Positions 48,258-64,000 of a stretch of 64,000 nt of DNA are shown here, piece after piece. The DNA comes from Eggerthella sp. YY7918 (lineage in GTDB: Bacteria; Actinomycetota; Coriobacteriia; Coriobacteriales; Eggerthellaceae). A program made the position numbers and the translations under genes. The DNA is taken from NCBI RefSeq assembly GCF_000270285.1, contig NC_015738.1, positions 2,852,001 to 2,916,000 of the forward strand, given 5' to 3'. A model generated the notes under the pieces. The model made no database searches. It saw only the letters and a program-made list of their open reading frames with translations, and was not told where the DNA came from. The first letter of the stretch is position 1, and every line of letters begins with the position of its first letter.

Positions 48258-49194
48258 GAGCGATTCCTTTGTTCATCTTTTTAGCGGCAAACGTAGCCAG
48301 CAGGTTCAAAAGCACCACCATGCCCAAAAGCACCACCGCTGTCGCATACGTTTCGTTCACGTGCAAGCCTTCGCTGGCCAGCACGTACATGTGCACGGCA
48401 AGCGTGCGGGCAGAATCGAACACCGCCATGAGGCCCTCGGTTCCGAAGCCGGGAATCTGCGCGATGGAGCCCGCCGTGAAGATAAGCGCCGCCACCTCGC
48501 CCACGCAGCGCCCGAGCGCCAAAATCACGCCGCCCAAAATGCCTGGTACCGCGCTGGGCAGCACGCAGCGAAACACCGTGCGCAAGCGGCCGGCGCCCAA
48601 GCCGAAGCCGCCCTCGCGATACGCATCGGGCACGGCCAGCAGCGCTTCTTCGGTGGTGCGCATGACCACAGGAAGCACCATAATGGCCAGCGTGCATGCA
48701 CCCGACAGAAGCGACAGGTTCCAGCCGAGCGCTGTCACAAAGAACAGCAGGCCAAACAGGCCATAAATGATGGAAGGAATGCCCTGAAGCGTCTCGGCTG
48801 TCGTGCGAACAATGCGCACGAAACGGCTGCCGCGCGGCGCATATTCCACCAGGTAGATGGCCGATCCTACGCCTACCGGCACCGCAAGCACAAGGGCAAA
48901 CGCCGCCATCAGAAGCGTGTTAAACAGCGCGGGCATAAGCGACACATTATCGGAGGTATATTCCCAAGAAAACAGGCTGGGCGTAAGATGAGGAACCCCC
49001 TGCACTAGGATGTATCCCACCAAAAAGGCAAGCACGAGCGCCGTGAGTGCGGCCCCCAGATACACCATTCCCCGCAATGCGCCCGCCCTCACGCGACGTG
49101 TTTTCGCACGCCGTGCTTCGGCAGCAGCGTAGAGCATGTCGAAGCGATCTGCCGTGGGCACGGCATCCAGAATAGGAGATGCACAGGCGGTCAT
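48250..49194 (-). CDS. pstA: Phosphate ABC transporter permease
   Basis: The 314-residue protein has about six membrane segments and PstA motifs: [115 protein letters not shown] (the EAA coupling loop). It forms the channel with PstC. It overlaps pstC by 4 bp (ATGA) and pstB by 8 bp, a tightly coupled set. Confidence 0.95.
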
Positions 49195-50051
49195 TTCGCT
49201 TCACCTCGCTTCTTCATGGCGTTGAACGACAGGGTGATGATGAGGATGAACACGAACAGCACCACACCCGTGGCCACGAGCGCCCCGCGATGCAGGTCGG
49301 CCGCATATCCCATCTCCAGCACGATGTTTGCCGTCATAGTGCGCACGCCATTGAAGATGCTCTCGGGAATGATGGGCTGATTGCCAGCCACCATGATGAC
49401 AGCCATGGTTTCGCCGATGGCGCGACCCACGCCCAGCACGATACCCGCCATGATGCCAGATGTTGCAGCGGGCACAATAACACGAAAGACCGACCGCTCG
49501 TGGTCGGCTCCCAGCGCGAGCGCTCCTTCATAGTACTTTTTCGGCACCGCATCCAGCGCGCTTTGCGCCACCGTGATAATGGTGGGCAGAATCATGATGC
49601 CTAAGAGCACCGCCGCCGCCAAAAGCGAAAGGCCGCGGCCGGGCATAGTGTCGCGAATGAACGGCACCATAACTACCAGGCCAAAAAAGCCGTAGACAAC
49701 CGAGGGGATACCTGCAAGCAGCTCCACACCCGGCTTGAGCACCGCCGCCACGCGCCCACTTGCAAAACGCGAAAGGAAGATGGCGGTGAGCAGGCCCGTT
49801 GGCACGCCCACGACAATGGCACCCGCCGTCACATAGATGCTGCCTACAATCATGGGAAAGATGCCGTATAGGTCGTTAGCCGGTCGCCATGTGGTGCCGA
49901 AGATAAAGTCGGGCAGACCGATTTGGGCAATGGCCGGCACGCCGTTTGCCAGCAAAAACACGCAGATAAGGGCCACGGCGAGGATGGAGATCCCCGCCGA
50001 AGCCGCAAACAAAACCCGCGCGGCATGCTCTTTAATACAAGATGAAGTCAT
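49191..50051 (-). CDS. pstC: Phosphate ABC transporter permease
   Basis: The 286-residue permease has about six membrane segments and PstC motifs: LPDFIFGTTWRPANDLYGIFPMIVGSIYVT, ELLAGIPSVVYGFFGLVVMVP, and ALDAVPKKYYEGALALGADHERSVFRVIVPAATSGIMAGIVLGVGRAIGETMAVIMVAGN. AAGGAG precedes the ATG at 50051. A 173-bp gap holding a structured repeat separates it from pstS upstream. Confidence 0.95.
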   Translation of the reverse strand: MTSSCIKEHAARVLFAASAGISILAVALICVFLLANGVPAIAQIGLPDFIFGTTWRPANDLYGIFPMIVGSIYVTAGAIVVGVPTGLLTAIFLSRFASGRVAAVLKPGVELLAGIPSVVYGFFGLVVMVPFIRDTMPGRGLSLLAAAVLLGIMILPTIITVAQSALDAVPKKYYEGALALGADHERSVFRVIVPAATSGIMAGIVLGVGRAIGETMAVIMVAGNQPIIPESIFNGVRTMTANIVLEMGYAADLHRGALVATGVVLFVFILIITLSFNAMKKRGEAK

Positions 50052-50072
50052 ATAACTCCTTGGTCAGGTAAG

Positions 50073-50221
50073 GTCAGCGAGAGGCGCCTAGGTGCCCGAG
50101 ATCGCCCCGTTTCGCGGCCGAGCGTGCTTCGCACGTGAGGGTAAGCGAAAAAGGGTCGAGATTGGGTGCATAGGCACCTCGCAGCGTCGAGCTGTTCCGC
50201 CGTTCGGCAGAACGGCGGAAC
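50073..50221. repeat. Multi-hairpin structured repeat, copy A (pstS-pstC gap)
   Basis: A long stem pairs 50077-50097 with 50164-50182. Inside it, 50104-50115 pairs with 50145-50155, capped by the hairpin CGTGC-TTC-GCACG (50123-50135). A separate perfect 12-bp hairpin follows (50194-50205 with 50210-50221). Copy B at 63841-63985 keeps every stem with compensatory changes and identical spacing through the first 117 bases. It lies between genes of one operon. Confidence 0.85.
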
Positions 50222-50224
50222 ATA

Positions 50225-51145
50225 CTACCCAAGCACTTCTTCCCAGGTGATGAACTCGCCGGTGTAGATGGCTTTAACCTGATCGGCGGAGAGGCCTTCA
50301 ATGGTAGCGGCGTTGTTCACGATGACCGCGATGCCGTCCTGAGCGATAACCGTGGGCTGAGCGCCAGCAGAAGTCTCGGAGTCTTTGAGCTCACGCGATG
50401 CCATGCCGATGTCGCACGTACCCTCAAGTGCCATGTTCACGCCGGTGGTGGAATCGGACTGCTGGACCTCGATGGTCACGTCGGGGTTGAGCTCCTGATA
50501 TGCTTCCTGCAGCTTCTCCATCACGGGTGTGACCGACGAGGAACCTGCAACCACAATCTTGCCGCTCTTGCCGGAAGGCTCATAGGCAGCGCCCTCTTCA
50601 ACTGCAATGTAGCCCGCTTCTTCGACGATCTTCTGACCGTCGGCACTCATGATGAACGCCATGAAGTCCTGCGCCACTTCCGACACGTCGTCCTTCGTTA
50701 CGATATTGAAGGGGCGTGCAATTTTGTAGTCGCCGCTCTTCACGTTGGCGGCTGTAGGCTCGGTGCCGTCGATGGTGAGCGCTTTCACCGTGTCGTTCAG
50801 AGAACCGAGCGAGATATACCCGATGCCGTTTTGGTCGCCCGCCACCGAGGTCATCATGACCGACGTAGAGTTTGTGATAGCGGCCGATGTCGTGGTCATG
50901 TCAACCTTCTCGCCGCTTTCATCTTTTTGCTCGATGCCGAACAGCTCAACAAACGCGCCACGCGTTCCTGAGCCGTCTTCACGCGAGTAGACCGATATCT
51001 CGCCGGAAGGAGACGAAGCCGCGGTGCTGTCCGCTCCCGAGTTCGCCGCTGAATCCGTGCTTCCGGAACCGGCACATCCCATCAGACCGAATGCGCCCAT
51101 TGCAAGTAGCGCTCCCATGACGATCACCATCAATCGTTTTCTCAT
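50225..51145 (-). CDS. pstS: Phosphate-binding lipoprotein
   Basis: The 306-residue protein has a lipoprotein signal (MGALLAMGAFGLMGCAG), then two PstS-like lobes with phosphate-loop features: SVYSREDGSGTRGAFVELFG, the repeated GKIVVAGSSSVTPVMEKLQEAYQELNPDVTIEVQQSDSTTGVNMALEGTCDIGMASREL, and AVIVNNAATIEGLSADQVKAIYTGEFITWEEV. The order of the lobes looks shifted: the segment normally N-terminal (GSSSVTPVM) is in the second half, a circularly permuted arrangement seen in some PstS-like proteins. AGGAGG precedes ATG 51145. Confidence 0.9.
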   Translation of the reverse strand: MRKRLMVIVMGALLAMGAFGLMGCAGSGSTDSAANSGADSTAASSPSGEISVYSREDGSGTRGAFVELFGIEQKDESGEKVDMTTTSAAITNSTSVMMTSVAGDQNGIGYISLGSLNDTVKALTIDGTEPTAANVKSGDYKIARPFNIVTKDDVSEVAQDFMAFIMSADGQKIVEEAGYIAVEEGAAYEPSGKSGKIVVAGSSSVTPVMEKLQEAYQELNPDVTIEVQQSDSTTGVNMALEGTCDIGMASRELKDSETSAGAQPTVIAQDGIAVIVNNAATIEGLSADQVKAIYTGEFITWEEVLG

Positions 51146-51296
51146 CTTTTTTAATCCTCCTTTGACGCGCCTCCAAGCGCGTCGATCTCTTTTCCAGATC
51201 TTGCAGGATTCATAATGAGCACCCAGCATCAAACCTCTGTCGAGTGGGCGTTAAATCTCAGTAAAGTTTGGGGTTCGTTGGAAGGATGCTGGCAAT
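51146..51296 (-). promoter_or_regulatory. pstS promoter region, possible Pho box
   Basis: On the minus strand, TTTACTGAGATTTAACG (about 51246-51262) contains two TTTAC/TTTAAC half-sites spaced about one helical turn, as in many Pho boxes. A clear -10/-35 pair was not identified, so this is tentative. Confidence 0.3.
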
Positions 51297-51988: not shown

Positions 51989-53210
51989 GTTCGTCTCCCT
52001 TCCCTATTCGCCCAGGCCGACGGCTGCCGTTGCCGGCGCGCCTTTAGGAATGGACACGGTATTGTCAGCACCAGTGGTGGTGCCGGGAGCGGGGTCGCCG
52101 CCCCCGGTCAGATTGTCTTCGTACTTCTTCAGCTTGCGCGAGAACAGGCTACGACGCAGCGCCACGCAAGCTCCGTAGATCACCGACACGATGATGCCGA
52201 GAATCAGGTAGAAGTGTACCCAACAATACGGGTGTTCCTGATTTGCCAACGGCGTACCATTGTCGTCAATCTCGGTCTCGTTCGGGCCGGCCAACGGGGT
52301 AACCGCGTCCTCAAGCACCTCAACAACCGGAGCTATAACAGGCGCTATCGGGCTGTCAGGCGGCACCGTACCCGGCGGGGTCACCGGAGGCGTAACCGGC
52401 GGAGTCGCAGGAGGCGTCACAGGAGGCGTCGGCGGCGTTACCGGCGGAGTTGTTGTCGGCGTAATAGTAAGGGCGCCTGCCACGAACGCCATCGTGTAGT
52501 TAGAAGCCTTAAAGGTTGTACCTGTCGTGCCCCCATTGCCATCGGCAAGTGCTAGTGTGCCCTGGTTGATGGCATAGGTGCCAACACCCTCGCCAGCCTC
52601 ACGCTCAAGAGCACCCGTGAAGTTCGGCGTTTCACCATTAACAGCGTTCGTGAAGGTGTACGTCAGCTCAGGATCGGCCGCACCGACAACCTTCGTAAAG
52701 CTGTTTGCCGTAACCGTAATCGGCGCAGGATTGATAACCACATCAGCAGAAGCGGTTACTGTTTCAAAGTTCGGATTGGTAGCCCTCACCTGTACCGTAT
52801 TCGTGCTCACGTCGGTGTATGTCGGATTGTCAGTTCTCCATGTCTGACCATCAAGCGAGTACTCAATCGTCGAATTAGGCTGAGCAGCAGTCGCCGTTAT
52901 ATAGGCTTCCTCACCATCGTAGTACTTAGTAATACCCGTTGCCACGATATTATTCGTATCAGACGGAGTGATGGTGAGCTTACCTTCAATAACGGTCACT
53001 TCGTAATTGCCATTTGGTGTATAGGCAGCTGTCAGCGTAATGTCGTCGCCAACATTTTCCTTGTTCGCATCTGCTGCCACGCGAGCATAGGTCACTTTAC
53101 CAAGATCGGCATCGTTGACCAAACTTGGAGCAATCGTACCCGTAAAGGTCGGATCAACATCGCCATAAACCTTGGTCGCATTGTTGACCGTGATTGTGAC
53201 CTTAACCGGC

Positions 53211-53755
53211 GTGATGGTGATGGTCTGGGTGCCTTCCACATAGCCCTCGTAGACGCCGGGGACCGATGCGCGGACATAGACCGTCTTGGTGTCAGAGACC
53301 TGGGTGGCCGTGATGTCGGCCGGGTTTTGAGTCCAGGTGTTCTTATCGGTGCTGTACTCGACCACGACCGGGTTGTTGTTGGTATCGACGGCCGTTGCAC
53401 TTGCTGCGGGAAGGGCGGTTCCGTCATAGACCTTGGAGGCGTCCTTCGGGGTGAGCGTCACCTTGCCGGCGATCTCGGAGGCCACGATCTTGAGGGTGCC
53501 TTCGGTTGTGGTCACGGTGTAGTTGGCCGTGACGTCGTCGCCCTCGGATGTGATCTTGAGGGTACCGGAGAAGGCGCCGGTGTAGTCGCCTACGTTGGTG
53601 CCTTCGATCTTGTAGGCAAGGCCCTCTGTGGCCTGGCCGGCGACAAGACCGCGATCAGTGCCTGCCTGCTCGACGCTGAACTCCTCAGAGGTGTAGGGGT
53701 TACCGGTGTAGGGCTGATCGGTGGTCCAGCCGAAGCCGGTGATGCTCAGCGGACG
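53211..53755. repeat. 545-bp perfect tandem repeat inside the adhesin gene, unit 1
   Basis: Positions 53211-53755 appear identical to 53760-54304, with a 549-bp period (183 codons, frame preserved). The lack of any divergence, even at third positions, implies recent duplication or ongoing gene conversion. Confidence 0.92.
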
Positions 53756-53759
53756 AGTG

Positions 53760-54304
53760 GTGATGGTGATGGTCTGGGTGCCTTCCACATAGCCCTCGTA
53801 GACGCCGGGGACCGATGCGCGGACATAGACCGTCTTGGTGTCAGAGACCTGGGTGGCCGTGATGTCGGCCGGGTTTTGAGTCCAGGTGTTCTTATCGGTG
53901 CTGTACTCGACCACGACCGGGTTGTTGTTGGTATCGACGGCCGTTGCACTTGCTGCGGGAAGGGCGGTTCCGTCATAGACCTTGGAGGCGTCCTTCGGGG
54001 TGAGCGTCACCTTGCCGGCGATCTCGGAGGCCACGATCTTGAGGGTGCCTTCGGTTGTGGTCACGGTGTAGTTGGCCGTGACGTCGTCGCCCTCGGATGT
54101 GATCTTGAGGGTACCGGAGAAGGCGCCGGTGTAGTCGCCTACGTTGGTGCCTTCGATCTTGTAGGCAAGGCCCTCTGTGGCCTGGCCGGCGACAAGACCG
54201 CGATCAGTGCCTGCCTGCTCGACGCTGAACTCCTCAGAGGTGTAGGGGTTACCGGTGTAGGGCTGATCGGTGGTCCAGCCGAAGCCGGTGATGCTCAGCG
54301 GACG
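53760..54304. repeat. 545-bp perfect tandem repeat inside the adhesin gene, unit 2
   Basis: Second unit of the pair with 53211-53755. It encodes one YDG-type module followed by a linking segment that starts RPLSITGFGWTT. Confidence 0.92.
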
Positions 54305-54819
54305 CGACTTAATTTCAAGATTGCCATTTGCCGTTTCAATGCTATAGGCAGCACTCACATCGCGGTTGTTCTTGTCTACAACGCGTACATTTTTGATCTC
54401 ATTATTGCCTTCGGCAGTATCGGCCACATTGGTAGCGGAGCCCACTACGTCAGCATACAGTTTATCGCCGTTACTGAACGTATATGCACCATTTGCGCCA
54501 ACCGTAATTGAAGACCCATTATCAATGGTCAGCTTATAGCCATCTGCCTCATGCTTTTGACCGTCGTATATCCATGAGCCGCTATCGGCTGTGATAACCA
54601 GTGATTGAATCTTCTGGTTGGTGATGGTGTATCCATTTTTAGCGGTACCTTCGGTAAGAGTGGCATAACCATCAACCGTAGACTCTTCAACAACCTTATA
54701 CTTATATGATATAGGAGCATCTTCGTCTGCTACATATTTATCCAAATCGTTAAAAGTAAAGGTACCCTCTTCTCCCCAAACGGGTATTTTGTCTGTAAGC
54801 GGAGTCCAATCCGTGCCGT

Positions 54820-57800
54820 TTACAGATTGGTACAACACCAAATTTGGGTTCTCATGTTCAACAGCCGTACCGAAGTCTTCCCATATTTTTTACCTGTAAT
54901 ACTAATTACGTTATACCAATTGTAAAGTTCACCAATACTGTACCGTATACCATTTTCATAATACGGGTCATTAGAATTTGATTCACCTACAACAGTATGC
55001 CAGCCGGTAAATCCATTACCTGACTCTTTGTACATGTCATAGGACTCTTCCAAAGCACCGAGCCTGTACAATTCCCCTTTAAGATTCGTGCGCGGGAAAA
55101 GAGACTCTAGTTTTTCCTGTCCAAGGTAGCCATCGCCGTATTCTTCAGACTGACTTACAAGTTCCCATTCCGTGAATGTACCTGATCCAACCTTATTATC
55201 TTCAGTAGGAGTGTCTGATCCACTCAAAGACATGTGAACAGTGTAGTTCAGCGTAGCAGGCGGTGTGGAGCCATGTTCGGTGGCCCACATCTTTTTGACG
55301 TAGAATCTCTGCGGAATACGAGTATTGGTAAACGCGACAGTGGTATCTTTGTCGGCCGTCACCTTAGCGCTCTTGCCCTCGATGACTCTACCATTATTAA
55401 TAGTGTACGTAGGCTTCCACGTAGCGCTGTTTGCGTCTTCGGAAACGGTGTAGGTCTTACCCTTCTCAACCGCCAGCGTTTTGGTGTCACCGTTACCAAG
55501 CGAGAACGGTCCCATGTCTCCTACCGTCACGTCAAACGTCTGCGCAAGACTTTCTTCCTTGGCAATGGTTTCGTCTACGATAGATTTGCTGATGGTCAGC
55601 AGAACGCTGTTAGTAGTATTAGTAACGACAAAACCCTTCTCGGCATCACCTGAATAAGCGATGCCATACTTGACTTTGCCTTCAACACCGTCAATCTCAG
55701 CCTGAACGCTGTCTGCGCCAGACGAAACTGGGGTATTGCCAACCTGCACCTCAGCATCGCTGTAGGTGTACAACTTTCCGTTGGCATCCTTGCGGGGCAC
55801 GTCCTTGAAGACGTGGTTTACTTCGCCACTGACAAGTGTTGCTACGGCACCCTCGTCCTTATATGGTTGCCCGTTTTGGAGAAGTTGAATTTTTACTTCG
55901 GGCTTGAGTTCAGGCTCGTTTCCGTCGGCACCAACCCATTTCTTCTCTACAGCAATAGAAGTGTTCGCCTTTTCAAATTTCGCTGTAAAGACCGTATTGG
56001 TGTAGCGACCTTCTCCATCCTTAAGGATATATTGAGCAGCTATGTCTGGAGTAAGCTCCTCAGTTGCTTCCAAAACCTTTTCCGCGTTCGGATCGTCCGC
56101 AGACGCGCCGACGTACCAGCCTTCAAAGCGGTAGGTGTCGTTAGCGGTAGCAGTCGATCCGCTTATGCCCTCAGTTCCTGTTACATAAATGTCATTGTCG
56201 GCCTCATTAGAAACTTTGCCGTTTCCATCTGTGGTATAGGTAACGTTATAGGTCGGTATCGGATCATAGTAGAAGATGATCTCGTTGCCGGTAACGTCAA
56301 TCTTGATAGTTTGCTCAGTTGGCTCGACCTTCGTGTAGCCGCGCACATCGATAGCCGACTCGGTTACTTGAGCACCGTATTCCGCCGTATCAATTTTGTC
56401 GTCAGCAACCTGCTCGGTCGTGCCGCTCTTGTAGTAATGTACGGTGTAGTCGAAATCACCCTTCTTGTAATAAAGGTTGATTGTGCCAGACTTGCCTTTC
56501 TCAAAAGTGTAGGTCACTGGATCGGCACTAACAAACCGATAGCCATCGATCTCTTGTTTATATTTACTAGTATTATTAACAACAGTACCGGCGTTGGCGG
56601 TATCCGCCGTTGCAGGATGAACCTCGTTAGTTGTCCCTACTTCATAATGGTTGATCTTAACCTCGCCAAACGAAGTAACGTCCACCTTACCATCAAGGTG
56701 CCAATATCTATCGTTGCTTGTCTCGTCATAGCCGGTTGCTCTTAATGCATTTTTAAGTCCGTAGCCCTCCGCGTTCCATTTGATGTTAGCTATATCAATA
56801 GAAGCGTTGCTGCTAAAACGTTCGATGTTTGAAGGATCGCCGAGAGCATTCATAACCTGATCCCACTCAGAGCCAGACGTGTAATACCGGTTTTCAGGAT
56901 ATGTGTCGGGAGCAACTATGTCTGAAACCCACACACGGCCGACGGTATACCAACCTTGGGAATTTAGAACAAGCCCTTCTGTGTCTCCCGTCGCTTTTGC
57001 ATAGAGGTACACATAGTGGCCATTTGATTCGTCGCGACTGACGGTAATCCGCTTGGATTTAGCAAGACCTCCAGCCTCGGCATGAATGAGAACCGTGCCT
57101 TTTTTCACGCCGGTAACAACACCGTTACTATCAACGGTCGCAATAGTTTTATCACTGGAGGTCCACGTGACGTCTCCCTCTATGTTAGTCGTACGCGCAG
57201 TAAGCGTAATGGTGTCGCCTACCATCACGCTACTCGGACCGGAGATGGAAAGAGACGGTTTTGGAGCCGAGGAGTCGCCAACAATGATGTAGAAATATTT
57301 GTAGTTGCCCGGCTTGCCGTAGCGCACCGTATATTGATCGCCTACTGTTGCATGCTCGTCAATCTCTACCTTAACCTTGCCTCCACGATCATCTTTGTCG
57401 TCAAGCTCAGCCTTGCCTGCTTTTTCGTCTTCCCAGGGAGAATCCTCGTTAATAGGGCCTTTCTTTATTTGCCACTTGCCGTCCTGGATAGGGTTTGCCG
57501 AAAGTTTCTTGTCTTTGTCAACGGGGATGTAGATAGGTGTGATGCCAGCATCTCCCGAAGCATTGCGAGTAGACCCTCCGGAGACAGAAGGAGTCCCTTC
57601 GCCCTTGATTACGGTGTCCTCCTCAATGGGGGTGGTTTCGTTGGCTTGGGGCACGTTGGTTTCGACGGCCTTGGCCTTCACGGTGATAACGAGCGTGCTG
57701 TCCACGTAGTCGCCCGCGATAGTGGAAATGCCATCCTGGGTGGTGATGGGCACCTCGGCCACAGCAGCGTTCTTCGCCTTGACCGATTCAATCTCAAAAC

Positions 57801-58254
57801 CGGTGTCGGGGCTGGCGACAAACTTCAGCTCTTTATGCAGTTTGGTGGTAAGCGTGGTAATTGTGGGTGTAGAGAAAGTCTGATCATTAACCGAAACATA
57901 GGCGTTTTCAGTCTCGAACGTAACGACAGCTTCGTCAACCTCGTTTGATTCGGCAGGAGGAGGCACAACCACTCCACCGCTGTTCGTGCCAGCTTCGGCG
58001 CCATGCTGTACGGTCCCCTGAATCACTTGCTGCTCACCAGGAGTTTCACCATTCGGATCCGGAGCCGGTGGCGTTGATGTCAGATCTTCTGATGCAGGAT
58101 CGGGCTGCTCCGTCGGAGTGCTCGTCGAATCTCCTGCGTCGCCTTCGGCGAAGGCGGCAAAGTTCGACATGCCAAATACCAAAACCACCGACATAAGAAC
58201 GGCGAGGAACTTGCCTTCGAACGTGTTTTTAAGGTCGAGAATCTTCTCTAACAT
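54820..58254 (-). pseudogene. Giant surface adhesin, 5' part (truncated by frameshift)
   Basis: The frame starts at ATG 58254 with a signal peptide (FLAVLMSVVLVFGMSNFAAFAEG) and a Pro/Thr/Glu-rich region. A BIG_2 Ig-like domain follows (LSISGPSSVMVGDTITLTARTTN...KGTVLIHAEAGG), then a MucBP-like repeat (YTVHYYKSGTTEQVADDKIDT...IFYYDP) and Cna_B-type modules (SIAVEKKWVGADGNEPELKPEVKIQLLQNG; FYVKKMWATEHGSTPPATLNYTVHMSL). It ends soon after ISITGKK, where the frame shifts and runs to a stop at 54820. As written the product lacks a membrane anchor and could be secreted. With one extra base in the A-run the protein would be about 2080 residues. Confidence 0.8.
54887..54892. other. Frameshift site in a homopolymer within the adhesin gene
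   Basis: A run of six T on the plus strand (six A in the coding strand) separates the two adhesin frames. Adding one base restores GKKIWEDFGTAVEHENPNL, a typical Cna_B domain start joined to the 3' frame. This is either a phase-variable slippage site, a real mutation or a sequencing error. Confidence 0.85.
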
Positions 58255-58758
58255 ATATATCACCCAGACTTTCCACCCGGGAACCATCCCGGACGACGCG
58301 AATAGCCACAACAAACTGCTGGGGCTATGAGCATCTTGGAAACACCCCCATGGTGTTTCACTTTCATGCGCTCATACGTTGTCGAACATGCCTGGGTACT
58401 TGCTTTACGTGGTAGGTTTGACCACCTGTCAAAGGGTACGACGACAGAGGGTCTGAAAACCCGTATATATCTTATCACGAAAGACCTTAAATGTCTCTTT
58501 TTTACACCCACTTTTACGACCCTCAACTTTTACTGAACCAGCAGCAATCCTACTTTTGTGAGTACATCAAACAAACGGTAGGCTGCTCGGGCGACCCTTC
58601 CCCTGTTTTCGGGGCGTCGAAAAGCTGCTTCGAACCCGCAACCTGACCTGCCCACTTTTCCACTCTTGAAGGTTTTTAACCTTTCCCCTGCGGCACCAAT
58701 AGCACCTCTTCATAAAGGTATAATGCCGGTTGAGCATCCTGACCTGAGGAAGGAACGC
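58255..58758. promoter_or_regulatory. Divergent control region with long structured leader for the adhesin
   Basis: This 504-bp gap separates the leftward adhesin gene and the rightward transglutaminase gene. It contains a perfect hairpin GAAACACC/GGTGTTTC (58339-58346 with 58352-58359) and an inverted repeat TTTGAC-CACCT-GTCAAA (58417-58433). An AT-rich promoter-like stretch (TATATAC on the minus strand) lies near 58470-58480, about 200 bp upstream of the adhesin ATG. A TATAAT near 58718 is a likely -10 for the rightward gene. No gene was found. Confidence 0.45.
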
Positions 58759-59823: not shown

Positions 59824-60876
59824 ATGGCCACAAAGATGCTTGAAAGCAGCGCCGTTTCCGCCTTCTGCGAGAGTATCGCCATCATGCACTCTGCCGGCAT
59901 TCAGATGGACGAAGCCGTCTACCTGCTGGGCGAGAACATGGAAGACGCCGCATTCAAGAGTACCTGCGACGAGGTGTATGCGGGTCTTATCGGCGGCAAA
60001 CGCCTTGCCGATGCGCTTCAACGCACCGGCGCGTTTCCCTCTCACGTGGTGGACATGGTGGCGGCGGGCGAACATTCCGGCCGCTTGGAAAACGTGATGT
60101 GGAGTCTGGCGAAGTACTACGACGAGGAAGATCGCCTTTACGCGAAGATCCGAAGCGCCATCGCCTACCCCGCTGCGCTCTTGTGCGTTATGTCGGTCAT
60201 TTTGCTGTTCACGGTGGGCGTCATTCTGCCGGTGTTCGTGGACGTATACACCGGTCTTAGCGGCAGTTTGACCGCAGGGTCGTTCGCGTATGTGAACGCC
60301 TCCATCATCATCGGGTGGATTGCCCTGGGCGTTACGCTTCTGTGCACCGTTGTGGTGCTGGTGGGCATGATTGCCGCACGAACGCCTGGTGGTCGCCAGA
60401 CGCTCGTGCGCCTGTTCGAGCGCATGCCGCTGACGCGCGGGCCGCTGCGTCAAATGGCCGTCGGTCGGTTTACCGCCGCGCTTGCCACATTTGTGGCTGC
60501 GGGCGTGGATACCGACACCGCCATGTCGCGCGCGGTGGATATGGTTGATCACCGCACCTTGAAGGCGCAGCTTGAAATGGTGAAGGCGCAGATGATCGAT
60601 CCTTCTCAGGGCAAAAGTTTGGCGCAAGCCATTTTTGACAACGACGTGTTTGAGCCCATCTACGCACGCATGTTGATTGTGGGAACGCGTTCAGGAAGCC
60701 TTGAGACCGTGCTGGCCAGCCTGTCCGACACGTTCTTCGAAGACTCCATCACCCGCCTTGACGGCCTTATCGACAGCGTCGAGCCAACCTTGGCGGCGTT
60801 CCTTACCGTAAGCGTGGGCGCAACGCTCATTGCTGTTATGTTGCCGCTTATTGGCATCATGGGATCGATTGGCTAG
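59824..60876 (+). CDS. Type IV pilus/type II secretion inner-membrane platform protein (PilC/GspF-like)
   Basis: The 350-residue protein has the two-fold GspF domain: first half SIAIMHSAGIQMDEAVYLLGENMED...VDMVAAGEHSGRLENVMWSLAKYYDEE with helices IAYPAALLCVMSVILLFTVGVILPVFVDVYTGL and IGWIALGVTLLCTVVVLVGMIA; second half FTAALATFVAAGVDTDTAMSRAVDMV...LIVGTRSGSLETVLASLSDTFFE with a last helix. It is somewhat shorter than typical PilC (about 400). It anchors the assembly ATPase and pilin platform. ATG follows GAGGAAAA. It starts the pilus-like cluster. Confidence 0.88.
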   Translation: MATKMLESSAVSAFCESIAIMHSAGIQMDEAVYLLGENMEDAAFKSTCDEVYAGLIGGKRLADALQRTGAFPSHVVDMVAAGEHSGRLENVMWSLAKYYDEEDRLYAKIRSAIAYPAALLCVMSVILLFTVGVILPVFVDVYTGLSGSLTAGSFAYVNASIIIGWIALGVTLLCTVVVLVGMIAARTPGGRQTLVRLFERMPLTRGPLRQMAVGRFTAALATFVAAGVDTDTAMSRAVDMVDHRTLKAQLEMVKAQMIDPSQGKSLAQAIFDNDVFEPIYARMLIVGTRSGSLETVLASLSDTFFEDSITRLDGLIDSVEPTLAAFLTVSVGATLIAVMLPLIGIMGSIG

Positions 60877-60881
60877 CGATC

Positions 60882-61208
60882 ATGTATCACGAACTCACTC
60901 GACAAGAAATCAGACGGCGCACGCGCAAGCGTATGGCTGGCTTTTTCGCCATTGTCCTGGTGATTGTTGTCGCGTTTTTCGCCTATGACGCTGCCCACGC
61001 CGCGCTGCGCGAGCAGGGAGAGCTTTCTGTGCGCAATGCCATTTTGAACAGCGCAAAGCAGTGCTTCGCCATCGAGGGGTCGTATCCCTCCTCGCTTGCT
61101 CATTTGGAAGAGAATTACGGTTTGGTAGTAAATCGGAGTGACTACGCAATCACCTATGAGGTGTTTGCCGATAACGTCATGCCGAATGTCGTGGTGCTGG
61201 CGAAATGA
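60882..61208 (+). CDS. Pilin-like small membrane protein (GspG-type pseudopilin candidate)
   Basis: The 108-residue protein has a basic N-terminus (TRQEIRRRTRKR), one hydrophobic helix (MAGFFAIVLVIVVAFFAYDAA), and a short domain AILNSAKQCFAIEGSYPSSLAHLEENYGL that strongly recalls pseudopilin G (AxxxYxxxxGxYPxsLxxL). It lacks the canonical GFTLIE cleavage site of type IV pilins, so processing by a standard prepilin peptidase is doubtful. It begins 6 bp after the PilC-like gene and overlaps the next by 4 bp. Confidence 0.75.
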   Translation: MYHELTRQEIRRRTRKRMAGFFAIVLVIVVAFFAYDAAHAALREQGELSVRNAILNSAKQCFAIEGSYPSSLAHLEENYGLVVNRSDYAITYEVFADNVMPNVVVLAK

Positions 61209-61729
61209 AGGCCGACATGGTACAGACACTGGTCAGAGCTGCAGAACCCGGGGCCGCTTCACGCGCCCGGGAAAAGCGCGGATCTGGCCGCGCGTTCATT
61301 ACGCTTCTGTTCGCCACCGTTGCGCTGTTTTTGCTGATTGCCCTGCTGGTGGGCATGAATGCCTATCGTGCGGTCAACGATGTACGCGACTTTTCCGACG
61401 AGACGCGGCTGGGGTTGAGCCTTGTAGGAAACTCCATCCGCATGAATGACGCGACGGATGCCGTGGGCGTGGCGGAGGGTCCTGAGGGGCGCGCGCTTGT
61501 GCTGACCGAGCATCTTGAGAACGGCGATTACGAGACGCGCCTGTATGCCTACCAGGGCTCCATCGTGCAGGAATACGCCCGCGCCGATGCGGCGTACACG
61601 CCCGAAAAGGCGCGAGAAATTGTTGCGTCCGAGAAGTTTGACTTCACGTATGAAAACGGCCTGTTGACCGTGTATACCGACCAGGGCTCAACCTCGGTTG
61701 CCCTGCGCAGCGTTCGAGGAGGTTCATGA
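61205..61729 (+). CDS. DUF4860-like pilus-cluster membrane protein
   Basis: The 174-residue protein has one membrane helix (ITLLFATVALFLLIALLVGMNAY, about residues 32-54) preceded by a basic segment. Its extracellular domain includes SLVGNSIRMNDATDAVGVAEGPEGRALVLTEHLENGDYETRLYAYQGSIVQEYARADAAYTPEKAREI. The arrangement fits DUF4860 proteins of actinobacterial pilus loci, an assignment from memory of the pattern. Overlaps of 4 bp upstream and about 1 bp downstream mark tight coupling. Confidence 0.65.
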   Translation: MKADMVQTLVRAAEPGAASRAREKRGSGRAFITLLFATVALFLLIALLVGMNAYRAVNDVRDFSDETRLGLSLVGNSIRMNDATDAVGVAEGPEGRALVLTEHLENGDYETRLYAYQGSIVQEYARADAAYTPEKAREIVASEKFDFTYENGLLTVYTDQGSTSVALRSVRGGS

Positions 61730-62268
61730 TGGCCCTCGATCTTTCACAGCTGCGCAGCGTGAATACGCAAGGGCGACGCTCGTGGCACGGAGCGGCATTC
61801 ATCGTGGAATCGCTGGCGCTGTTGGCGTTTCTGGTGACCGCGCTTGCCGTGGTCATACAGCTCATGGGGGTGGCGCACGAGCGCGGCGTTGAGGCGAGCC
61901 ACCTTTCCAATGCCATTATCTTAGCTTCCAACGATGCCGAAGCGTTTGCGGCGGACCCGACGAGCGGCTCGTCCGAGGCGCAGTTTACGGAAGACAGCGG
62001 CACGCTTGTTTCGCTTGAGGAAGCAGCGGCTGAGGCTGAGGCTGGCGCGGATGCGGGAGCCGACGGCGCAGGCGCGGCCGGTAGCAAGGCTGGCGCGGCC
62101 GGTAGCGCGGATGCCGGGGTGACCGTGTATCGGGTGGAGCGAACGGTGAGCGACCACGCCGAAACGGCGGGTACACTGTATGAGGCTCACATTCAGGTGT
62201 CGAGCGACGGCGAGATTTTGTACGAATTGGATGCCGCTCGCTATGTTTCCGAGGGGGTCGCACGATGA
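61729..62268 (+). CDS. Pilin-like membrane protein with low-complexity insert
   Basis: The 179-residue protein has a prepilin-like N-terminal helix after a basic segment (WHGAAFIVESLALLAFLVTALAVVIQLMG; the FIVESLALLAF run has the Glu-containing look of pilin helices). A domain interrupted by an Ala/Gly/Glu/Asp-rich stretch (about residues 100-130) follows, then VYRVERTVSDHAETAGTLYEAHIQVSSDGEILYELDAARYV. I do not recognise a specific family. It overlaps the preceding stop (ATGATG; a start three bases earlier is also possible) and the next gene by 4 bp. Confidence 0.65.
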   Translation: MALDLSQLRSVNTQGRRSWHGAAFIVESLALLAFLVTALAVVIQLMGVAHERGVEASHLSNAIILASNDAEAFAADPTSGSSEAQFTEDSGTLVSLEEAAAEAEAGADAGADGAGAAGSKAGAAGSADAGVTVYRVERTVSDHAETAGTLYEAHIQVSSDGEILYELDAARYVSEGVAR

Positions 62269-62732
62269 GCGCGCGGACAAAAGGATCGGTGCGCATCGGG
62301 CCTATCAGCCTGTTCACGCTTGTGATTGTGCTGTGTTTGGCAGTGCTAGGCGTGCTGGCGATCACAACCGCACAAGCCACCTTTGCCGCCGCCGAAAAGC
62401 AGGCAGTTTTTACCGATGACACCTATGCGAACGAATCGGCCGCACAACGATTTGTGGCCGAGGTCGATACCGCGCTTGCTCCCGTTCGCGAACGTGGCGG
62501 CACCTTGGATGAGGCACTGGCAGCCGTTGAGCGCGTCTTGCCCGAGAATGCCACGCTGGAGGAAACGACCGTTGCAGCCACCTTCTCGGCCGAAAGCGGA
62601 CGAACCCTTTCCGTGGAACTGGTTATCAATGCGGATGCAACGTATGACATAGCACTTTGGAAAGCACTGACGGAATGGACGGATGTCAGCTCTGGCGAGA
62701 CCCTGTGGTCGGGCGCCTCGCGGACACGATAG
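62265..62732 (+). CDS. Pilus-cluster membrane protein of unknown family
   Basis: The 155-residue protein has one membrane helix (PISLFTLVIVLCLAVLGVLAITTAQATFA, residues 13-41) and an extracytoplasmic helical domain (FVAEVDTALAPVRERGGTLDEALAAVERVLPENATLEE) ending with a small beta-rich part. No named family is evident. It is translationally coupled to the previous gene (4-bp overlap) and 8 bp before pilT, so it belongs to the pilus-like operon. Confidence 0.65.
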   Translation: MSARTKGSVRIGPISLFTLVIVLCLAVLGVLAITTAQATFAAAEKQAVFTDDTYANESAAQRFVAEVDTALAPVRERGGTLDEALAAVERVLPENATLEETTVAATFSAESGRTLSVELVINADATYDIALWKALTEWTDVSSGETLWSGASRTR

Positions 62733-62740
62733 GAGACACG

Positions 62741-63814
62741 ATGAAACTTGAACAGCTTTTGCAAGAGATGGTGGACGCGAAGGCCTCTGATGTCTTCATC
62801 ATCGCAGGTTTGCCTCTGACATACGAGGTAAGCGGTCAGCAGGTGCGCCTGAACACGCCCCCGTTCAAGCCGGAGGATACCGACTCGTTTGTACGCGCCA
62901 TCTACGCGGCATCCGGTCGCAGCATGGATGCTTTTGTGGCCAATGGCAACCACGACGACGACTTCTCGTTTGCGCTGCCGGGCATCGGACGATTCCGCGC
63001 CAACATCTTCCGCCAGCGCGGTTCGTTCGGCGCAGTCATTCGCGTTATTCCGTTTGGGCTTCCCAGTGCCGAAGATTTCAACATTCCTGACGAGGTGCTG
63101 CGCTTGAGCTCGTTCCAAAAAGGCTTGGTGCTGGTCACCGGCCCTGCGGGCGCAGGCAAGTCGACAACGCTTGCGTGCATTATCGATCGGCTGAACCACG
63201 AACGCACCGGCCATATCATTACGATGGAAGACCCCATCGAATACGTGCACAAGCACGGAACCTGCATTGTTACCCAGCGTGAGGTGCCCACCGACGTTGC
63301 CAGCTACGGCGAAGCACTGCGCTCGGCCATGCGCGAAGCGCCCGACGTTATCCTTCTGGGCGAGATGCGCGACTACGACACCATCAGCACCGCGGTGACC
63401 GCCGCTGAGATGGCGCAGCTGCTGTTCAGCACACTGCACACCACGGGCGCGGCCAGCACGGTCGACCGTATTATCGATGCCTTCCCCGCCTCGCAGCAGC
63501 GCCAGATTCGCATCCAGCTGTCCATGGTGTTGCAGGCCATCGTAAGCCAGCAGCTTGTGCCCGCCATCGACGGTGGCGCGGTGCCGGCTTTCGAGATCAT
63601 GTTTGTGAATACCGCCATTCGCAACCTCATCCGCGAGGAGAAGACGCACCAGATTGACAGCGTCATTGCCGCGGGCGGAGTCGAAGGCATGCGCACGATG
63701 GATCAGAGCCTGTTTGATCTGGTGAAAGCAGGAAAAATTACCAAAGAGATGGCCGTGCAGTACGGCATCCACCAGGAAGCCCTGGAGAAACGCTTCGAGA
63801 TAGAGGGGCTGTAG
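62741..63814 (+). CDS. pilT: PilT-like type IV pilus ATPase
   Basis: The 357-residue ATPase matches PilT: LEQLLQEMVDAKASDVFIIAGLPLTYEVSG, FRANIFRQRGSFGAVIRVIP, Walker A GPAGAGKST, the Asp box ITMEDPIEYVHKHGTCIVTQREV, Walker B VILLGEMRDYDTISTAVTAAEMAQLLFSTLHT (GExRD and His box), and IIDAFPASQQRQIRIQLSMVLQAIVSQQL. PilT normally powers pilus retraction. It is the only pilus ATPase visible here, so it may also drive assembly or a PilB may lie elsewhere. ATG 62741 follows AGGAGA. A structured repeat (63841 on) follows its stop. Confidence 0.93.
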   Translation: MKLEQLLQEMVDAKASDVFIIAGLPLTYEVSGQQVRLNTPPFKPEDTDSFVRAIYAASGRSMDAFVANGNHDDDFSFALPGIGRFRANIFRQRGSFGAVIRVIPFGLPSAEDFNIPDEVLRLSSFQKGLVLVTGPAGAGKSTTLACIIDRLNHERTGHIITMEDPIEYVHKHGTCIVTQREVPTDVASYGEALRSAMREAPDVILLGEMRDYDTISTAVTAAEMAQLLFSTLHTTGAASTVDRIIDAFPASQQRQIRIQLSMVLQAIVSQQLVPAIDGGAVPAFEIMFVNTAIRNLIREEKTHQIDSVIAAGGVEGMRTMDQSLFDLVKAGKITKEMAVQYGIHQEALEKRFEIEGL

Positions 63815-63840
63815 TCGCGCGGCACAGGTTGGCGTAGTAA

Positions 63841-64000
63841 GTCAGCGAGAAGGCTTGAGGTGTTCGAGATTGCCCCGTTTCGCGGCCGCGCGTGCTTCGC
63901 ACGTAAGGGCAAGCGAAAAAGGGGCGAGATCGAATGCCTCAAGCCTTCGCAGTGTCGGCGGGTTACGTCGTTCGTTAGAACGACGGAGTTTAAGCAAGGT
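63841..64000. repeat. Multi-hairpin structured repeat, copy B (downstream of pilT, to window end)
   Basis: This aligns without gaps to 50073-50189 over the first 117 bases. The outer stem (63845-63865 with 63932-63950) is better paired than copy A and differs by several compensatory changes. The inner stem and CGTGC-TTC-GCACG hairpin are conserved in sequence. The last hairpin is CGTCGTTC-GTTA-GAACGACG (63966-63985). The element may extend past the window. Confidence 0.85.

Follow-up and report, generated by a model that had tools for sequence, protein, structure and literature searches.

The window, by which we mean the whole stretch of 64,000 nucleotides of Eggerthella sp. YY7918 DNA that was analysed, carries two neighbouring pst genes on its minus strand. 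The upstream cistron is a pstS-like phosphate-binding protein gene (ORF 50225..51232); a Pfam scan of 35 adjacent genes gave PBP_like_2 as one of its matches. The downstream cistron is an ABC permease gene (ORF 49191..50051), which we take to be pstC from homology and gene order. The 80 relatives kept were 63–90% identical to it, and its product is 90% identical to PstC of Gordonibacter sp. Marseille-P2775 and 87% identical to that of Candidatus Rubneribacter avistercoris. Elsewhere in the ORF list, two large adjoining ORFs with repeated internal stretches, probably surface proteins, lie at 52004–58314 on the minus strand, and a run of ORFs at 59824–63814 on the plus strand resembles a type IV pilus or type II secretion cluster with a PilT-like ATPase.

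The gap between pstS and pstC contains a structured repeat (copy A), which is antisense to both genes. A covariance model (R1) built on 14 copies from the genome of the window (G000) matched copy A at 50070..50225 on the plus strand, which is the folded strand (163.2 bits, E 1.6e-34), and copy B at 63838..63993, also on the plus strand (158.3 bits, E 1.9e-33). Hairpin repeats had been placed at both sites by the original prediction. Copy B lies downstream of a plus-strand ORF (62657–63814), and at its tail end an opposite-strand gene begins 38 nt past the model end in the gene-neighbour set of three genomes.

The element is about 156 nt long and contains 54 consensus pairs over two hairpins. 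In order, it has a weak CAGGT-like box, the constant GTCAGCGAG box, a long hairpin that includes non-standard pairs, a linker resembling GCAGCGTCG and a tail hairpin of 12 bp. The CAGGT box is clear in copy A (50065..50069, plus strand), where it lies near the ribosome-binding site of pstC on the other strand; by eye it recurs ahead of the GTCAGCGAG box at variable spacing, with low information. The conserved 5' box GTCAGCGA (50073..50080, plus strand) carries 1.2–1.9 bits per position in 122 of 125 copies, which were anchored on that same box. The main hairpin follows at 50081..50180 on the plus strand. It consists of the helices 50081–50108/50153–50180, 50111–50119/50140–50149 and 50122–50127/50131–50136, and contains internal tandem U.G/G.U and G.A motifs. 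The tail hairpin (50194..50221; 12 bp, loop of 4), strand-neutral in the family, adjoins the stop codon of pstS (50225..50227, minus strand), which lies 3 nt past it; the model ends 4 nt past the tail. Pairwise comparison with copy A placed the main hairpin of copy B at 63849..63948 (plus strand) and its tail hairpin, to which no strand was assigned, at 63962..63989. The other strand of this main hairpin also gave a weak R1 match (28.6 bits). The predicted folding energy was −88.1 kcal/mol for copy A (z −7.14 versus shuffles) and −87.6 kcal/mol for copy B (z −8.69).

The two copies were compared over the 54 pairs. Thirty-six pairs are identical, eight are double-changed and paired in both copies, and six are changed on one side with pairing kept (G-C/G-U type). 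The coordinated changes agree with those described in the original prediction, namely the outer pairs 50083/50178 and 50086–50089/50172–50175, the stem end that reads CCC/GGG in copy A and TTC/GAA in copy B (50095–50096/50165–50166), and the tail pair 50200/50215. Three pairs are unpaired in copy A and paired in copy B (two by one-side changes and one by a both-side change), and one is paired in copy A and broken in copy B. These positions, 50085/50176, 50091/50170 and 50105/50156 in copy A and 63965/63986 in copy B, had not been pointed out before.

A dispersed family within one order

When copy A was used as the blastn query, at least 22 distinct places were found in the 3.12-Mb genome (among the best 24 rows, E up to 2.8e-6). 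A covariance model, which had been proposed as the way to look for further copies, recovered many more, both here and in relatives. It matched 46 places in G000 at E<1e-3 (58 rows at E up to 1), and gave 38 matches in the other genome of the same genus (G001) and 50, 29 and 15 matches in G137, G184 and G006, respectively. Matches were present in 27 of 60 genomes, the window's own counted. A class-wide sample gave matches in 102 of 296 genomes, all 102 being the window's own genome or genomes of the same genus, family or order; a phylum-wide sample with stricter filters gave 15 of 396, and these 15 all belong to two families of the window's order, f1 and f10. The family is so far confined to the order of the window, and its spread among relatives is patchy.

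The Rfam search of the window matched only a tRNA elsewhere and nothing at the element, and that of six loci to E 10 gave three microRNA matches far below the gathering cut-off. With no Rfam match at the gathering cut-off, a named RNA family was rejected, in line with the original prediction, which knew of no named family with such a layout. A plasmid or phage origin was also rejected, since one copy (L003) gave no blastn match in the plasmid and phage sets. A full-text search of openly licensed papers, supplementary files aside, returned no paper that describes the family by its title or the start of its abstract. Within the consulted parts of PMC11109978, PMC8632094, PMC8040213, PMC3733652 and PMC12306157, a term search found no Eggerthella; the sole Collinsella passage there concerns a 51-bp candidate upstream of L7/L12 (PMC8040213). 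It is possible that the family is present as an unnamed published entry, for example among the candidates of PMC8040213.

Some copies differ in length. Copies of about 224 nt were found at L124 (G000 1416889), L187 (G001 C4:98891), G024 C84:104737 and G024 C91:9269, and the extra 70 nt of L124 lie in the apical part of the long hairpin. L010 (G000 1577279) and L190 (G001) have a second tail unit past the first one; L153, the positional orthologue of L190, has one tail.

Pairing is constrained and the long hairpin favours one strand

The idea that pairing rather than sequence is conserved was borne out over about a hundred copies by shuffle and slide controls. In alignment A2, which holds the 14 blastn-found copies aligned without structure, 96.3% of the cells pair and double changes occur in 35 of the 54 pairs. 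The number of double-changed cells was 135 versus 42.3 (sd 5.3) after shuffling, and none of 500 shuffles was as high. Alignment A3 comes, like the E-values, from the 14-copy model and leans toward its structure and strand; in its 106 distinct rows, which include two other-strand readings of counted copies and two short remnants, double changes were observed in all 54 pairs, 94.0% of 5439 cells pair, and the covariation score was 0.615 versus 0.193 for shuffles (reached by 0 of 500). The result from A2, found by blastn and aligned without structure, agrees with that from A3. When the partners were slid by 1–3 columns, pairing fell to 34–46% in both alignments.

The two strands do not fold equally well. 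The main part of the element folds better on the model strand than on the complement by 13.8 kcal/mol on average (in 95 of 101 copies), and the mean strand difference of the tail was −0.2 kcal/mol (p 0.22). The model strand also folds better in all 14 blastn-found copies and in all 23 copies listed from low-copy genomes. Among main-stem wobbles outside the constant wobble columns, G-U versus A-C counts were 30 versus 7 in the 14 copies and 181 versus 87 in the 106 rows; the corresponding tail counts were 6 versus 4 and 28 versus 34. Tandem U.G/G.U and tandem purine pairs are typical of folded single strands. Here the tandem U.G/G.U is exactly TG/TG in 51 of 106 rows, and the tandem purine motif alternates between G.A (43 rows) and A.G (28 rows). 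Single changes between positional orthologues, with each event counted up to twice, gave 123 G-U versus 64 A-C on the model strand of the main stems, and 18 G-U versus 31 A-C in the tail, which leans to the gene-sense strand (p 0.085). DNA parameters gave the same sign for copy A (−46.6 versus −41.8 kcal/mol), so RNA and single-stranded DNA forms are not separated by these energies.

Our results showed that the pairing of the long hairpin favours one strand, opposite to the adjoining gene, and that the tail is strand-neutral. The original prediction had offered a folded RNA or a DNA cruciform. Its constraint on pairing stood. The cruciform is disfavoured for the long hairpin, since it would use both strands and the wobbles, tandem motifs and free energy all point to one. 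The tail, a nearly perfect palindrome without strand preference, would suit a double-stranded feature, that is a cruciform or a protein-binding palindrome, but the strong strand bias of the long hairpin makes such a feature very improbable as the explanation of the element.

Since the favoured strand is antisense to pstS and pstC, pst mRNA does not form the favoured fold of copy A. A fold is still predicted for the reverse complement of copy A (−73.9 kcal/mol), so copy A could possibly affect pstS mRNA, as had been suggested.

Most copies dock behind stop codons

Gene calls were made with a codon-score script written for this analysis. By these calls, 92 of 125 copies have an opposite-strand stop codon between −45 and +8 relative to the model end (76 within −6..+3, 11 at −19, which is inside the tail, and 5 elsewhere inside), and 33 copies, copy B included, are without a docked stop. 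The stop-to-tail distance is about 0–7 nt in most copies, or the stop is inside the tail. The adjacent gene on the tail side is on the opposite strand in 109 of the 125 copies, on the same strand in 10 and uncalled in 6. A set of 110 copies from three genomes, which overlaps the 125, gave a stop in range in 81 and a same-strand gene on the tail side in four. On the non-tail side, the next gene start is often 20–40 nt away, with a ribosome-binding site read by eye. Docking was also found between convergent genes, where the stop adjoins the tail in 20 of 25 gaps, several of them with at least 70 nt free on the other side.

Among the 12 relatives shown for the pstS-pstC gap, the element is present only in a Gordonibacter (L032), a named relative that carries its copy in the same place. 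The gap in L031, L033 and L034 measures 30–33 nt from stop to start. A scan of 10 upstream genes gave, among others, htpG, frr, rpoD, prs and a transporter binding protein, and a scan of 35 gave, among others, the families SHMT, SecA, GAPDH, EF-Ts and Cpn60; one arrangement is binding protein-element-permease-element. No Pfam family was found in more than one of the 35 upstream genes scanned (of 65 listed) or in more than two of the 21 downstream genes scanned (of 35), and a metabolite sensor is unlikely because no family recurs beyond these numbers. The right flank of one copy (G000 1074293; L111/L002) resembles, by a motif, the beginning of an RNase P RNA gene that reads away from the element.

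A host cis-element would account for the docking if the tail and the long hairpin of the transcribed strand protected upstream mRNA, slowed termination or cut read-through, and copies were kept for that. The docked convergent gaps with free space opposite, the kinds of upstream genes, the placements between pstS and pstC and between binding protein and permease, and the gene-sense lean of the orthologue tails all point this way, and the part of PMC12306157 consulted reports ribosome stalling at REPs that lie no more than 15 nt from a stop codon. However, that mRNA does not contain the strand favoured by the wobble asymmetry and by the conserved motifs in the long hairpin, and the main hairpin is collapsed or deleted in place in some copies. 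We consider this explanation unlikely.

The model strand could also be transcribed as an antisense RNA, the fold of which would stop or neutralise antisense transcription entering the gene, or act in trans. Against this, no promoter-like conserved sequence was found upstream in the 122 anchored copies or at copy A, on which ground an own promoter for the model strand was rejected, and there is no consistent T-run past the tail in 23 loci, a few of which have TTT or TTTT. We regard antisense RNA as improbable, even though the RNA-like motifs and the wobble bias lie on the model strand and the site is exactly where an antisense polymerase would enter the gene.

Orientation follows the replication fork

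The orientation of copies relative to replication was determined in three genomes in which dnaA was located. Of 123 copies, 117 have the model strand as their leading-strand template (44 of 46 in G000, 48 of 49 in G137 and 25 of 28 in G184). The rows used were the 46 with E<1e-3 of the 58 listed in G000, 49 of 50 in G137 and 28 of 29 in G184; G137 204789 (the other strand of a counted copy) and G184 1080707 (partial) were left out. The gene background in 20 sampled stretches of G000 was 203 leading and 85 lagging, and the p values versus a 70% expectation were 1.6e-5, 5.7e-7 and 0.016 in the three genomes. Copies between convergent genes, which offer a gene end on either side, have the leading template in 23 of 25 cases, among them 19 of the 20 with an adjoining stop.

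Many of the upstream genes are busy housekeeping genes, and this may explain part of the bias. A pure replication-strand effect was rejected as the sole cause, as the three codirectional exceptions to the fork rule in the set of 110 copies are still antisense to the adjacent gene. Copy G000 C1:147736-147892 (L121; 145.8 bits) is an exception reversed relative to the fork rule, and the matching neighbourhood of G001 (L208) has its copy in the opposite orientation.

Copies persist at their sites and are exchanged in place at one of them

Flank comparison showed a number of copies in the same gap across different genera. Fourteen positional pairs were tested, and in 9 of them the partner was the nearest relative among that genome's examined copies; movement within the window's family is therefore slow. 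Over the 31 of 51 positional pairs used (the others were dropped for length or identity below 0.62), 187 double changes were counted, 164 of them still paired, versus 59.5 expected, a figure that assumes independence although pairs share copies and exchange of types inflates the count. One used pair, G000_907758 with L215, represents neighbouring rather than strictly orthologous sites.

Exchange of hairpin types was observed at one site. The gene there was found in 34 of 39 genomes, and the 16 with at least 92% identity, G184 among them, were examined. Thirteen have a full element, which is of one of three types with 7, 5 and 1 copies, and the other 3 have a remnant, all behind the same stop codon. 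Between types the genes are 92–98% identical and the elements only 64–77% (0.98 and 0.66 for L346/L347), and one type has a similarity of 0.88–0.93 to copies from other G184 loci. Between close relatives, linked changes flip the tail stems, and the arms of L345 are unmatched. The differences between copies are thus a mix of compensated change in place and replacement of whole hairpins. The exchange at the one site examined could be ordinary gene conversion.

Linked flips and unmatched arms would also be expected if pairing were kept by a mutation process, template switching between arms at replication, rather than by selection; the orientation would then reflect the instability of the stabler hairpin on the lagging-strand template. 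The leading-template bias is consistent with this, as is the finding that 109 of 226 main-stem double changes to another Watson-Crick pair are transversions (events counted up to twice). But arm copying would erase the tandem U.G/G.U and the purine pairs, both of which persist, with G.A replacing A.G at one purine pair, and it leaves the docking at stop codons unexplained. We therefore give this process little credence as the cause.

Signs of movement were sought in near-duplicates. In L237/L240, a pair at different loci, similarity stops directly ahead of the 5' box and directly past the tail; in L222/L243 the shared sequence extends upstream, with part of another element, and the boundary is not clean. 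No clear target-site duplication was found in the near-duplicates, and the filled and empty pst sites are too diverged to read one. Collapsed copies that retain the box and the tail exist. No mobilising protein was found with the profiles of Y1 transposase (PF01797) and reverse transcriptase (PF00078). Both are absent from G000 and G001; the former occurs in 5 of 10 copy-rich genomes and 4 of 10 copy-free ones, and the latter in 3 of 10 and 2 of 10. The tail is the 3' end of the model strand and adjoins the gene, which made a retroelement attractive; this reading was rejected since G000 and G001 are without reverse transcriptase.

Discussion

We propose that the family is a dispersed, non-autonomous mobile structured repeat, in which the folded single strand is the working form and gene ends are the slots (probability about 0.45). 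To spread and to replace others, copies would pass through a single-stranded DNA or RNA form of the strand that lies opposite the host gene. This single strand would have to fold, and an enzyme would recognise its tandem G.A and U.G/G.U motifs together with the constant boxes. In mRNA a copy would add no more than a hairpin past the stop codon, like REP and ERIC, and this may be why copies are tolerated, or useful, where busy leading-strand genes end. By analogy, the added hairpin may make the expression step between two cistrons, pstS and pstC for instance, steeper. On the same analogy the hairpins could plausibly serve the host in mRNA, but the strand evidence of the long hairpin does not favour such a role. 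A more specific version of the mobile-repeat proposal is that this is a new kind of mobile element, combining a strand-specific folded single strand with an enzyme that docks it tail first behind the stops of leading-strand genes, residents being replaced in place; we offer this tentatively and think it somewhat doubtful.

If that version is true, the 3' boundary of a gene would be a lasting slot with changing contents. The question raised is what recognises the template-side fold behind stop codons and how copies get swapped in place. Such elements could set the ratio of neighbouring cistrons and serve as a natural marker of ongoing genome change. The family also lets selection on structure be split by strand, gene and replication direction from sequence alone.

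Integron attC sites conserve structure over sequence, fold from one strand, and are antisense to the preceding gene, behind its stop codon. The family resembles attC in all of these features. The difference is that its copies are dispersed among housekeeping genes and not in cassette arrays, and the end boxes of attC were not noticed by eye.

In behaviour the family is like REP, ERIC and CIR, and like MRSC-65-2, but none of the definitions of REP, ERIC and CIR covers it fully. MRSC-65-2 is described, in the consulted part of PMC11109978, as a long covarying stem with dozens of copies per genome, thought to be mobile, its DNA or RNA form being unsettled. The long covarying stem and the dozens of copies per genome are shared; by that description, MRSC-65-2 is set apart as a single stem with repeated UYCCGG in diverse phyla. 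The Caulobacter/Brucella intergenic repeats (CIR), as described in the part of PMC2229807 consulted, have two inverted-repeat arms and a linker, about 110 bp in all, with GANTC at the terminal loop. The main hairpin, linker and tail likewise make two arms and a linker, but by eye no GANTC is present in the terminal loops of 14 copies, and CIR, compared here by description, occur in other bacteria. Bacterial MITEs such as ERIC/IRU, NEMIS and RUP are similar in being intergenic long stem-loops of 100–200 bp, and the action of ERIC on upstream mRNA is said to depend crucially on its orientation (PMC2229807, in part). The table of that paper gives ERIC, NEMIS and RUP terminal inverted repeats, target-site duplications and TA ends; here the 5' box and the tail end are, by eye, not inverted repeats of each other, and single-strand bias and stop docking are absent from the description of ERIC and the other MITEs in the consulted part of PMC2229807.

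REPs are likewise dispersed, palindromic, intergenic and near the 3' ends of upstream genes, going by the part of PMC3733652 consulted, and 92 of 125 copies lie near such an end here. According to the same part, the GTAG- and CGTC-tagged super-families are 20–40 bp long, the CGTC stems being 8–9 bp behind the tag; GTAG REPs often provide the stop codon, and a link to a Y1 tyrosine transposase (RAYT) was proposed for GTAG REPs only. The element differs in its 156 nt, 54 pairs, two hairpins and tail stem of 12 bp, with CGTC several nt before the tail, in the lack of a Y1 transposase in G000 and G001, and in an orientation tied to gene and fork. On size and transposase, an assignment to REP/RAYT was rejected. 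A separate palindrome of the form GTAGTCGTTGGGGACGTTCTT..AAGAACGTCCCCAACGACTAC, resembling a GTAG-tagged REP, was observed 3' of the element at many of the loci L334–L349.
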